Positions 15,623 to 45,430 of a stretch of 64,000 nt of DNA are shown here, in pieces. The notes under the pieces were generated by a model. The model did no database searches. It worked only from the letters and a program-made list of their open reading frames with translations, and was not told where the DNA came from. Each line of letters begins with the position of its first letter. Position 1 is the stretch's first letter. Source of the stretch: Candidatus Vesicomyosocius sp. SY067_SCS001. GTDB lineage: Bacteria > Pseudomonadota > Gammaproteobacteria > PS1 > Pseudothioglobaceae. The DNA lies in NCBI RefSeq assembly GCF_014706615.1, contig NZ_CP054877.1, positions 558,001 through 622,000 of the forward strand, given 5' to 3'. The translations under genes were made by a program, and so were the position numbers.

Positions 15623-15901
15623 CTAAATCTTATTAATGATTTCTTTAAGAAATTTACCTGGTTTAAAAAATGGTACAAACTTCTCACTTACCTCTGTCCT
15701 TTCGCTAGTTTTAGGATTAATACCTTGTCGAGCTTTACGATATTTCTTATAAAAACCACCAAAACCTCTTATCTCAACACCTTTACCAGAAACAATACCT
15801 TGTGTTAATTCTTCCAAGATTACTTTAACTGCTATCTTGGCATCAGTTTTAGATAAATTAGAACTATTTGATAAATTTAAAATAAGATCAGGCTTTTTCA
15901 T
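15623..15901 (-). CDS. ihfB: IHF beta subunit
   Basis: A DNA-bending histone-like protein; the beta partner of the IhfA encoded at 58346-58663. The 92 residues contain the HU/IHF signature EIRGFGGFYKKYRKARQGINP, with the intercalating proline in the beta arm, and FKPGK near the C-terminus. It lies 31 bases downstream of rpsA, the standard gammaproteobacterial order. The first half differs more from the E. coli protein than the DNA-contacting half. Confidence 0.93.
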   Translation of the reverse strand: MKKPDLILNLSNSSNLSKTDAKIAVKVILEELTQGIVSGKGVEIRGFGGFYKKYRKARQGINPKTSERTEVSEKFVPFFKPGKFLKEIINKI

Positions 15902-36929: not shown

Positions 36930-37844
36930 TTAATCATACCCTAATGAAACTAGTGCACGTTTATCATCAGACCATCCTTGTTTAACTTTAACCCTAAGTT
37001 TGAGGAATACTTTTCTATCTAAAAACCCCTCAATACTTTTTCGTGCTTCAGTACCAATTAATTTTAGCATTGCACCTTTATTACCAATAACAATATTTTT
37101 TTGTGAAGCTTTATCAACAAAAATATGGGAAGCAATTAGTTGTAAATTTCTATCTTGTTCAAACTGTTCAATTTCAACGGTTAAATCATAAGGTAACTCG
37201 TCTTTTAAATAGCGCATAAGTTTTTCTCGAATAAATTCAGCAACAATAAATTTTTCACTTCTGTCGGTTATATAATCAGCATCAAAAAAAAGAGTTTGTT
37301 TTGGTAAATATTGCAAAACTAATTCACGTAATACACAAATATCATTTTTTTTAAATGCTGATAATGGAAATAAATCTGTTGGTTGATATTTTTGAAAAAT
37401 TTTATTCAAAAATGGTAACATCTCTTGCTTGGATTTAAGTTTGTCAATTTTGTTAATACATAAAATAACTGGCACATCTATCTGGGTAATATGTTCTAAA
37501 ACTCTCAAGTCCTCTTTGGTCCATTTACCTACTTCTATTAACCATAAAATAACATCAACATCCATTATAGCTAAACTGGCCACTCTATTCATATAAGAAT
37601 TAATAGCTTTATAGTTCCCCATATGAATACCTGGTGTATCGACAAATACCATTTGATAATCATCAGTTGTATCAATAGCATGAATTCGGTGTCGTGTGGT
37701 TTGTGGACGGTGTGAAGTGATAGATAATTTACGTCCAATTAATTCATTAATAAGTGTAGATTTACCAACATTAGGTCTCCCAACAACTCCAATAAAACCT
37801 GACTTAAAGTTTAATTTAGCATTTTTTTTGTTTATTTTAATCAT
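36930..37844 (-). CDS. era: Era GTPase
   Basis: Era binds the 3' end of 16S rRNA and is required for 30S maturation. The 304 residues contain G1 GRPNVGKSTLI, G3 DTPGIH, G4 NKIDKL and a C-terminal KH domain (NIVIGNKGAMLKLIGTEAR). It overlaps rnc by eight bases. Confidence 0.97.
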   Translation of the reverse strand: MIKINKKNAKLNFKSGFIGVVGRPNVGKSTLINELIGRKLSITSHRPQTTRHRIHAIDTTDDYQMVFVDTPGIHMGNYKAINSYMNRVASLAIMDVDVILWLIEVGKWTKEDLRVLEHITQIDVPVILCINKIDKLKSKQEMLPFLNKIFQKYQPTDLFPLSAFKKNDICVLRELVLQYLPKQTLFFDADYITDRSEKFIVAEFIREKLMRYLKDELPYDLTVEIEQFEQDRNLQLIASHIFVDKASQKNIVIGNKGAMLKLIGTEARKSIEGFLDRKVFLKLRVKVKQGWSDDKRALVSLGYD

Positions 37845-38505
37845 GATTTTTTAATTTATTTAATAAAATTTGTGCACAAAATTGTTCTGCTTTTTTAATA
37901 CTTGTAGCAGATTGCTTAACTTGTAGGCTTCGGTCTTCTAAAAAACAATTTACCATAAATATTGCATTATGATCTTTTCCTGTTGTATCAATTAGTTCGT
38001 ATTTTGGTAAAATATTACCACGCTTTTGTAGATATTCTTGTAATTGTGTCTTTGAGTCTTTTAACGAATCATATGGACTAATATTATCTAGTAATACTTT
38101 AAAAAGACTTAAGATAACCATATTAGTAGTTTCAAAATTTGAATCCAATAACACTGCACCAAATATTGCTTCCACAGTATCTGCTTGAATAGATTCACGC
38201 CTATAACCACCACTTTTTAACTCGCCATAACCTAAAATCAAATTCTTTGATAATTCTAATGAAATACCTAATTGCACCAAGGTTTTACCTCTAATTAAGT
38301 GTGACCTTAATCGGGAAAGCTTTCCTTCGTCAACACAAGGAAAACGCTGATAAAGTTCTTTTGAGATTGCTACGCCTAAAATACTATCACCTAAAAATTC
38401 TAAACGTTCATTATTGTTTCTTCCCCTAGAACGGTGAGTTAATGCAAGTTTTAATAAAGATAAGTCTTTAAATTGATAATTAATTTTTTTTTGTAATTTT
38501 TTCAT
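37837..38505 (-). CDS. rnc: RNase III
   Basis: A double-strand-specific endoribonuclease for rRNA and mRNA processing. The catalytic signature NERLEFLGDSILGVAIS lies near residue 35 and a second acidic residue set in ADTVEAIFGAVLLDS; the C-terminal double-stranded RNA-binding domain covers about residues 150-220. In E. coli lepB precedes rnc; here it does not. The gene is divergent from the Cas6-like gene with about 70 bases between. Confidence 0.96.
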   Translation of the reverse strand: MKKLQKKINYQFKDLSLLKLALTHRSRGRNNNERLEFLGDSILGVAISKELYQRFPCVDEGKLSRLRSHLIRGKTLVQLGISLELSKNLILGYGELKSGGYRRESIQADTVEAIFGAVLLDSNFETTNMVILSLFKVLLDNISPYDSLKDSKTQLQEYLQKRGNILPKYELIDTTGKDHNAIFMVNCFLEDRSLQVKQSATSIKKAEQFCAQILLNKLKNHD

Positions 38506-38575
38506 TACTTTGTATTAGGTTTTATAAACAAGTAATGTGTTTATAATACATTCTGATTATAACTTAAGATTTTTT

Positions 38576-39238
38576 ATGTTTTGGCAAGAAGAAGCTAAAA
38601 AAGAATATTTTACGCTGCCTGAAACCATACAAGATGTAGTGTTTAATATCTTCTCTAATATTTTACCTATTGATCATAGTTTTTTACTAGAACAAGCGCT
38701 ACTTAAATACTTACCATGGCTTAATGAGGTAGATGCTGGTATCTTTAATATTAGTGTAGCTGATGGTAATGGCTGGGTACAGAATCATAAAAATGGATTC
38801 TATTACCCTTCCAAACGCTCAAAACTAATTATTAGATTGCCAAAAGATAAACTTAATGAAACAAAACAGATACTTGGTAAAACACTATATTTAGATAAAT
38901 ATAAAATAAAAATTATCAAATTTTTAAAACCTAGATTACTCAGTGATATGCCTATACTATTCGCAAAAAAAATTGTCTGTAATGAAACAATGAGTGAAAA
39001 TGATTTCTTACAAGATTCTTTTGAACAATTAAAAATACTTGATATTTCTGTTAAGAAAATGATAGCTGGTCTTAAAAGTCACATTAAAACTGATACTCAG
39101 ATTATTCATACCCGTTCTCTAATGCTGGCTGATCTAAAAAAATATGAATCAATAACACTACAAAAAAAAGGCCTTGGTAATTATCGATTATTAGGCTGTG
39201 GCTTGTTTATTCCCCACAAAGATATCACAAGTATCTAA
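38576..39238 (+). CDS. Stand-alone Cas6/Cmx6-like protein
   Basis: A 220-residue protein that I recognise by pattern as resembling the MYXAN-type Cas6 (Cmx6) family of CRISPR RNA endonucleases. Points of resemblance are PIDHSFLLEQALLKYLPWLN near the N-terminus, a KRSKLIIRLPKDKLNET strand-helix of a ferredoxin-like fold, and the glycine-rich C-terminal loop GLGNYRLLGCGLFIPHKD. I prefer the ATG at 38576; a GTG at 38537 would add 13 residues. No CRISPR repeats or other cas genes occur anywhere in the window. It is divergent from rnc (RNase III). Function without a CRISPR system is unknown. Confidence 0.7.
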   Translation: MFWQEEAKKEYFTLPETIQDVVFNIFSNILPIDHSFLLEQALLKYLPWLNEVDAGIFNISVADGNGWVQNHKNGFYYPSKRSKLIIRLPKDKLNETKQILGKTLYLDKYKIKIIKFLKPRLLSDMPILFAKKIVCNETMSENDFLQDSFEQLKILDISVKKMIAGLKSHIKTDTQIIHTRSLMLADLKKYESITLQKKGLGNYRLLGCGLFIPHKDITSI

Positions 39239-39540
39239 CTTTTACTAAAAGTATTTTAGTACTGATAATTAAACCTTTAAAAGCAAAATAATTTTCTAGA
39301 CTTCAAAATGGTTAATAAAGTGCCTATTTGGTTTAAAGTTTATTTTATAAATTCTTTGAAGATTGAAGATTTAAAAAGGAAGATAAAGAATAATAATTAT
39401 GTAATAATTTACTTTCATAAAAATGGTTATTATTATTGTGATAAATTAATTAAAAATAACTTTCGTTATATAACTTTTAGCTACTAAACTATAAAAAATT
39501 TAACGTCATTAGAAATAAATATGTGAAATAAAATAGATTT

Positions 39541-39580
39541 AACTGATTAGCAATACAGATAACTGATTAGCAATACAGAA
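39541..39580. repeat. 20-base tandem duplication
   Basis: AACTGATTAGCAATACAGA plus T or A occurs twice head to tail (39541-39560 and 39561-39580), with one difference at the last base. It lies in non-coding sequence and looks like a recent replication slippage. Confidence 0.9.
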
Positions 39581-45033: not shown

Positions 45034-45103
45034 AATAAAAATAAGAGAATTAACAAAAAGTATTATTATATAATGATTACATTTTTAATTGTATGGAGAA
45101 GAA

Positions 45104-45430
45104 ATGACATTAGCTGATTTAGAAAGAGATAATAATGGTTATCTAAAAGATCTTAACGAATGGAATGAGGATATTGCAGTAGAATTTTCAAAAGAAGAAG
45201 GAATTACCTTAACAGATGATAGCTTCAAATTAATTAATTTTTTACGCAATGAGTATATCAACAACAACGCTAACCAACCTAATGAACGTAATATGGTTAA
45301 AGGTTTAAAAGATGATTGGAATGGTAAGTTAAGCACTAAAGAATTATATATATTATTTCCAAAAGGTCCCGCTAAGCAAGCAGGAAAAATTGCAGGACTA
45401 CCTGAAACTAAACGAAAAGGTGGTTATTAA
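45104..45430 (+). CDS. DsrC/TusE-family protein lacking both conserved cysteines
   Basis: A 108-residue protein of the DsrC/TusE fold: DLNEWNEDIAVEFSKEEGI, NFLRNEYINNN and the C-terminal arm LFPKGPAKQAGKIAGLP. In DsrC the arm reads KQACKIAGLP and ends in a second cysteine, and both carry the trisulfide chemistry. Here the first is glycine (G94) and the tail KRKGGY has none, so there is no cysteine at all. The start is the ATG at 45104 behind GGAG. It resembles regulatory DsrC-like paralogs rather than a sulfur carrier. Confidence 0.88.
   Translation: MTLADLERDNNGYLKDLNEWNEDIAVEFSKEEGITLTDDSFKLINFLRNEYINNNANQPNERNMVKGLKDDWNGKLSTKELYILFPKGPAKQAGKIAGLPETKRKGGY

Follow-up and report, generated by a model that had tools for sequence, protein, structure and literature searches.

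The gene under study encodes a protein of 220 residues and occupies positions 38576 to 39238 on the forward strand of the window, by which we mean the whole 64-kb stretch of DNA analysed here. Its reading frame is intact, as the initial annotation had stated, and opens with an ATG at 38576; a longer, GTG-started form from 38537 was also listed, and the shorter form was preferred because relatives start with M[F/Y]W. On the other side of a divergent gap of 70 bp (38506-38575) lies rnc on the reverse strand (37837-38505), which serves as context here and is not part of the wider module described below. A gap of 437 bases separates the cas6-like gene from thyA, and in it we noted by eye a 20-base unit, TAACTGATTAGCAATACAGA, that occurs twice, head to tail, at 39540-39579. 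The thyA-like gene near cas6 is only ∼30% identical in some relatives (L018, L021, and L028; tblastn) and 79-89% identical in others, and a non-orthologous replacement of thymidylate synthase near cas6 is possible among these relatives. Some 5.9 kb downstream of cas6, also on the forward strand, is an rspA-like gene (45089-45430, with a likely start at ATG 45104), the product of which is a DsrC-family paralogue without cysteine that ends in RKGGY.

Both sequence and predicted structure place the first of these proteins in the Cas6 family. Pfam PF09559 (Cas6) matched residues 20-215 with 145.9 bits (E 1.9e-42; cut-off 26.7), and a PADLOC Cas6 model matched the same reading frame with E 2.9e-60. 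The NCBIfam model TIGR02807 (cas6_cmx6) matched as well, with 93.1 bits and E 2.1e-26, a score under the curated equivalog cut-off of 98.85. A profile (A1) was made from 37 relatives, which we call dsr-type for reasons given below. All 37 of its rows were matched by TIGR02807 at E 1e-3 or better, and a search of the PDB with A1 led to the Cas6 of a type I-B CRISPR-associated transposon (E 1.2e-24). The AlphaFold model of the protein (mean pLDDT 89.9, pTM 0.85) has an order of elements that fits two tandem ferredoxin-like halves, and the leading Foldseek matches in the PDB were Cas6 proteins, namely that same transposon Cas6 (8fcj chain B, TM 0.79-0.80), P. furiosus Cas6, and Cse3. In 8fcj, which is the closest solved structure, Cas6 is part of a guide complex with the transposon and has an Asn at the place of the dsr-type His34. 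The glycine-rich C-terminal loop that had been pointed out from the letters, GLGNYRLLGCGLFIPHKD, is present in the translation, and the protein has the conserved His34 and GxGxxRxxGCGxF loop. Since the sequence profiles are joined by a model that matched solved Cas6 structures, the original observation of Cas6-likeness holds; by its sequence and its fold we assign the protein to the Cas6 family, without calling it a CRISPR Cas6.

The surroundings of the gene offer little that belongs to CRISPR. The source genome (one contig of 1,032,764 bases) has a single PF09559 match and none to Cas1; for Cas3 there are three weak matches, all below the cut-off (at best 42.4 bits against 102.45). No array-like family of direct repeats (at least 23 bases, within 150 bases) was found in the window. 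A PADLOC scan covered 64 window ORFs (80% of the window bases), and among the 25 of 50 matching PADLOC families listed the only cas-type ones were Cas6 models, all falling on the cas6-like gene, and a pair of models for the CRISPR regulator Csa3, both of which match one ORF (E 3.5e-17). The initial annotation had described an orphan gene with neither an array nor another cas gene nearby, and for the window, and for Cas1 and Cas3 in the genome, this description is borne out apart from the Csa3-type models among the families listed. The Csa3 match is likely just that of an ArsR-type regulator, and the other PADLOC matches in the window (DndA/SspA, E1-E2, mad2/mad3) look like housekeeping relatives. 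In a class sample of 276 Gammaproteobacteria (in the GTDB sense, completeness at least 90), Cas1 was found in 111 genomes; 42 had both Cas1 and Cas6, 50 Cas6 only, 69 Cas1 only, and 115 neither (Fisher p 0.20). With this lack of association, the presence of Cas6 is not tied to CRISPR. In the congener G040 a Cas1 match (G040:C1:859020-859609) is broken by stop codons and cas6 is intact; in this genome CRISPR decays and the dsr-type Cas6 stays.

The gene is under purifying selection, with dN/dS values against four relatives of 0.26, 0.17, 0.24, and 0.20; those of rnc were 0.26, 0.13, 0.12, and 0.14. For a tree we used 68 rows (60 main dsr-type, 3 distant dsr-linked, and 5 plasmid Cas6) with midpoint rooting, and the 63 dsr-type rows were split from the five plasmid Cas6 by a branch with 100/99 support. 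The Pfam family that the protein has in common with type I-MYXAN Cas6 would fit a remnant of a CRISPR-Cas system since lost, or a Cas6 that serves arrays elsewhere in trans. The separate clade, the selection on the gene, the findings on Cas1 and Cas3 in the source genome, the missing Cas1 link in the class, and the fate of the two genes in G040 all speak against this explanation, and we regard its probability as practically negligible. A Cas6-like protein for which no CRISPR partner was found, which is under purifying selection and is present in all 12 congeners, instead points to a role outside CRISPR.

The initial annotation had looked for such a role in housekeeping, with particular attention to the divergent rnc. 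This neighbour is indeed constant among close relatives: it adjoins cas6 in all 30 loci read from the order of the source organism, in which 49 genomes carry cas6, and in the best 32 of 80 named loci, which are those closest to the window. It was not found beside cas6 in 30 class loci (L031-L060, with 1.5-kb flanks) or in the other 48 named loci. There the usual neighbour, as a survey of homologues beyond the closest relatives revealed, is the dsr operon, so that a shared function of cas6 and rnc is not needed. Of the 80 named loci, 40 contain dsrA and eight contain neither dsrA nor rnc, and in all 40 loci holding dsrA it is divergent from and upstream of cas6. Among the remaining eight, L144, L145, and L154 are short and L159 has dsrC and dsrE; L131, L153, L155, and L169 (Parabeggiatoa, Marithrix, Thiomargarita, Thiotrichaceae) are of full length, and cas6 is unlinked in them. 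The usual order is dsrC, E, B, A on one strand and a TauD-like gene, in some cases a gene for a helical-repeat protein, cas6, and rspA on the other.

The same tie was seen in gene content across the class, with dsrA (TIGR02064) as the marker of sulfur oxidation. Because the class limits were strict (E 1e-60 for dsrA and 1e-32 for rspA), fragments of genes at contig ends escape these counts. PF09559 was found in 92 of the 276 genomes, with one match each except in G314 (two pieces), and dsrA in 90. Both were present in 87 genomes, Cas6 only in 5, dsrA only in 3, and neither in 181 (p 2e-61 by a Fisher test, which, as for Cas1, ignores phylogeny). In 64 of the 87 genomes with both, dsrA lies within 6 kb of cas6 on the same contig, and in every one of these close cases it is divergent and upstream, which makes the reverse dissimilatory sulfite reductase (rDsr) cluster dsrABEFHCMKLJOPN the genomic partner of cas6; in the other 23, dsrA is far off on the same contig (2) or on another contig (21). 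To our knowledge, neither Cas6 nor the DsrC paralogue found with it has been counted among the parts of the rDsr cluster as described (Allochromatium type).

Among the genomes with Cas6 and no dsrA match, two contigs of G275 each carry part of dsrA; in G141, G162, and G191 the contig runs out close to cas6, on the side where dsrA would lie, and G343 stands as an exception. Among those with dsrA only, the contig of G187 breaks off within the repeat gene, after which cas6 would be expected, that of G175 starts just before dsrA, and G266 has rspA with no cas6 found. A draw of 239 genomes from the phylum contained, besides the source genome, at least 3 further ones with cas6 (1-3 contigs each), and in each of these the cas6-rspA pair diverges from dsrA; since the matches listed (24 of 239 rows) all belong to the same class, the draw carries little information on other classes. 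In viral contigs, none of 42 pattern matches was a relative. Mirror-tree correlations were 0.54 for cas6-dsrA, 0.81 for cas6-TauD, and 0.84 for dsrA-dsrB, values consistent with joint inheritance, as would be those of any vertically inherited genes. Outside the order of the window, linkage alone can produce such co-occurrence.

Within the order the linkage is broken and the genes are kept. In the source genome cas6 lies beside rnc, and dsrA (G000:C1:834380-835642), the helical-repeat gene (G000:C1:988280-988969), and the TauD-like gene (G000:C1:996038-996886), located by searches of this genome, are all outside the window. Nevertheless, cas6, rspA, dsrA, the repeat gene, and the TauD-like gene are present in all 12 genomes of the genus (g1), including those of 1.0 Mb; in the congener G041 the repeat gene is split into two parts, and it may be a broken copy. 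Across the 83 genomes of the order, PF09559 was found in 49, with one match in 48 and two in G070 (contigs C58 and C120), which may be a mixed bin since 4% contamination is given for it. These 49 genomes share 48 with rspA (49), 46 with the repeat gene (49), and 46 with dsrA (50), where dsrA pieces in G045, G055, and G080 were counted as present but a 35-position piece in G047 was not. The discordant genomes are G003, G048, G078, and G079, with dsrA and no cas6 (78-93% complete), and G047, G068, and G074, with cas6 and at most a small piece of dsrA (66-86% complete). The TauD-like match includes a stop codon in 14 of 52 genomes, perhaps at its end.

In the sister genus g5, cas6, rspA, dsrA, and the repeat gene were found in none of 29 genomes and the TauD-like gene in three; many g5 genomes are incomplete, and the loss is probably a single evolutionary event. 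The lone g2 genome is likewise without cas6, dsrA, the repeat gene, and the TauD-like gene. That the genes are scattered, still kept together with dsrA, and gone in g5 argues against hitch-hiking by linkage, and cas6 is almost certainly a member of an rDsr module. The same distribution bears on the suggestion that cas6 works with RNase III in RNA processing of a general housekeeping kind: the divergent rnc of the closest relatives would suit it, but cas6 is missing from 184 of the 276 class genomes, its presence follows dsrA (87 of 92 Cas6 genomes), and g5, which lacks dsrA, lacks cas6. A general role of this kind is therefore not supported, and we consider it very improbable.

The most regular companion of cas6 in this module is the DsrC-family gene, for which we use RspA as the name of the DsrC type without C-terminal cysteines. 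In the window, rspA (45089-45427) matched PF04358 (DsrC) with 100.8 bits (E 7.3e-29; cut-off 24.9), and our profile A2 matched with E 7.4e-43 at G000:C1:603116-603427, which is 45116-45427 of the window. The ORF has no cysteine at all and so is without the conserved C-terminal cysteine of the DsrC/TusE carriers; the protein ends in RKGGY in place of the cysteine-bearing arm. In most dsr-type loci the gene lies directly downstream of cas6. It was found there, with the RKGGY ending, in 28 of 30 class loci, and no such ORF was seen in the short flanks of the other two (L045 and L057). The ending is invariant in A2 by choice, because KGGY at the end of the protein was the criterion in the first selection of rspA; when picked by similarity, 37 of 39 matches in the named loci end in RKGGY, and of the other two one lies at the end of its locus (L128) and one stops early (L156). 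Counting only matches that reach profile position 112, which drops G137, G158, and G320, rspA is full in 83 of the 276 class genomes. Of the 92 cas6 genomes, 81 share it and 11 have no full match; it lies within 1.5 kb of cas6 in 71 of the 81, and downstream on the same strand in 68.

The 40 named loci holding dsrA contain rspA on the cas6 strand in 35 cases, the TauD-like gene in 37, and the helical-repeat gene in 19. The TauD-like protein belongs to the 2-oxoglutarate/Fe(II) oxygenase family. The repeat protein matches no Pfam family, and its AlphaFold model is all-alpha with a best PDB match of E 0.039. Downstream of rspA in the named loci L123-L167 there is often a gene for a PKHD-type hydroxylase, and in a subset there are genes for a rhodanese and MsrB. 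No function of the RspA type was found in the literature searched.

These partners open a reading in terms of tRNA, in which Cas6 would bind a tRNA arm and a TusE-like RspA would link cytoplasmic sulfur flux to tRNA thiolation or, with the TauD-like protein, hydroxylation. A member of the DsrC/TusE family and a protein of an oxygenase family in one module would fit this, as would the nearby rhodanese and MsrB genes, but RspA is without the sulfur-carrying C-terminal cysteine, and the distribution tracks that of dsrA, whereas thiolation of tRNA occurs far more widely. An action on tRNA is, in our view, decidedly unlikely.

Conservation of single residues bears on what the protein may do. His34, Arg87, and Gly-Cys-Gly 207-209 do not vary across the 68 rows of the tree. 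The main dsr clade in addition has Trp3 and Trp67 in 60 of 60 rows and Asn65 and Lys161 in 59 of 60, residues that are not found in the three distant rows. Cas6 proteins use an N-terminal histidine to cut the hairpin RNAs that they bind, and from its position and known Cas6 biochemistry we take His34 to be the catalytic residue; an invariant histidine of the active-site type is no proof of cutting. The Cas6 fold might accordingly have been kept as a non-cutting scaffold that binds RNA or protein, for example one that assembles or gates DsrAB-DsrC or DsrMKJOP with RspA. RspA resembles a DsrC lacking the cysteines at its C-terminus and could fit into the site of DsrC, and the residues particular to the main clade lie off the active site. 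A pure scaffold, however, would not need the histidine and glycine loop that are as invariant here as in plasmid Cas6, and we judge a scaffold unlikely.

Cas6 travels with the genes of sulfur oxidation in relatives and for that reason resembles a CRISPR enzyme that sulfur metabolism has taken over. It is probably a domesticated Cas6 of the rDsr system, outside CRISPR, that acts with RspA on an RNA, the likeliest being a dsr transcript. Its active site (His34) would bind, and probably cut, this RNA with RspA as partner, and the likeliest substrate would be the long dsr transcript. By cutting or capping a hairpin in it, the protein could adjust how much dsrC is made relative to the other dsr products, or tune dsr expression to the supply of sulfur. 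The choice of the dsr transcript as target is a guess and, taken by itself, less likely than not. A fuller version, in which Cas6-RspA reads the sulfur-loading state and cuts or protects dsr mRNA, and so couples flux to enzyme stoichiometry in most Gammaproteobacteria (GTDB sense) with rDsr, is tentative, and we hold it to be doubtful. DsrC itself carries two C-terminal cysteines according to passages of PMC3397948, and binding of Allochromatium DsrC to DNA upstream of the dsr cluster is reported in passages of PMC5944118.

Folding of dsr intergenic gaps against shuffled sequences drew attention to the region between dsrC and dsrM. Its 41 gaps had a mean z of -2.88, with 73% below -2, and 49 fixed windows on the same region had a mean z of -2.45, with 53% below -2. 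The dsrA-dsrB and dsrB-dsrE gaps were also more structured than shuffles, though more weakly so, and no excess structure was seen in the 5' regions of dsrA, the TauD-like gene, or cas6. In the dsr stretch of the source genome (L171) a dsrC-dsrM stem-loop lies at about 15650-15740, and most loci in L124-L190 have one too. Plausibly the transcript is processed at this hairpin, which could increase dsrC output; hairpins of this kind also serve other purposes, for example partial termination. By eye the dsrC-dsrM hairpins have no sequence in common, and L182 and L183 have cas6 and no such hairpin. Folding of the dsr intergenic gaps and 5' regions did not single out an RNA target, and the only Rfam matches in the window and in L171 were tRNAs.

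What we describe is probably a domesticated Cas6 in a module of energy metabolism, a link that we did not meet in the literature searched. A figure of dissimilatory sulfur genes in a 2023 paper shows cas6 in colour, in the part seen without remark (PMC10989796). No statement of a Cas6-dsr link was found in passages of open-licence PMC full text, a collection without preprints in which absence is weak evidence; the passages of PMC5944118, PMC3397948, PMC10952691, PMC5728499, PMC7540712, PMC8889020, and PMC3150331 do not state it, and the words Cas6 and CRISPR are absent from PMC11406059 and PMC10504309. If the reading is right, a CRISPR RNA processor has been recruited into a main energy pathway of sulfur oxidisers, including vent and seep symbionts, relatives of SUP05, and purple sulfur bacteria, and is kept even in symbiont genomes of 1 Mb. 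A set of poorly characterised genes would then gain a pathway, and control of the dsr operon could be tested from a new side. As TIGR02807 matches every dsr-type row tried, genes of this type are probably often annotated as CRISPR-associated, a label that is probably misleading in sulfur oxidisers; a lone cas6 does not mean CRISPR.

The nearest described relative, type I-MYXAN Cas6/Cmx6 (TIGR02807, PF09559), has the Pfam family, the active-site-type histidine, and the GxGxxRxxGCGxF loop in common with the dsr-type. The latter differs in its linkage to dsr, in having no CRISPR neighbours found, in its separate clade, in the additional Trp3, Asn65, Trp67, and Lys161, and, for the window protein, in a score under the TIGR02807 cut-off. 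Relatives on plasmids came from seven records, all cyanobacterial, and in four of the five plasmid loci fetched cas3 adjoins. The fifth (L215:3974-7237, Gloeobacter) holds a gene annotated as MYXAN Cas6 in a stretch in which other cas genes were not seen and which also holds genes of the PAPS-reductase and cupin families; this Gloeobacter gene is perhaps another non-CRISPR Cas6.
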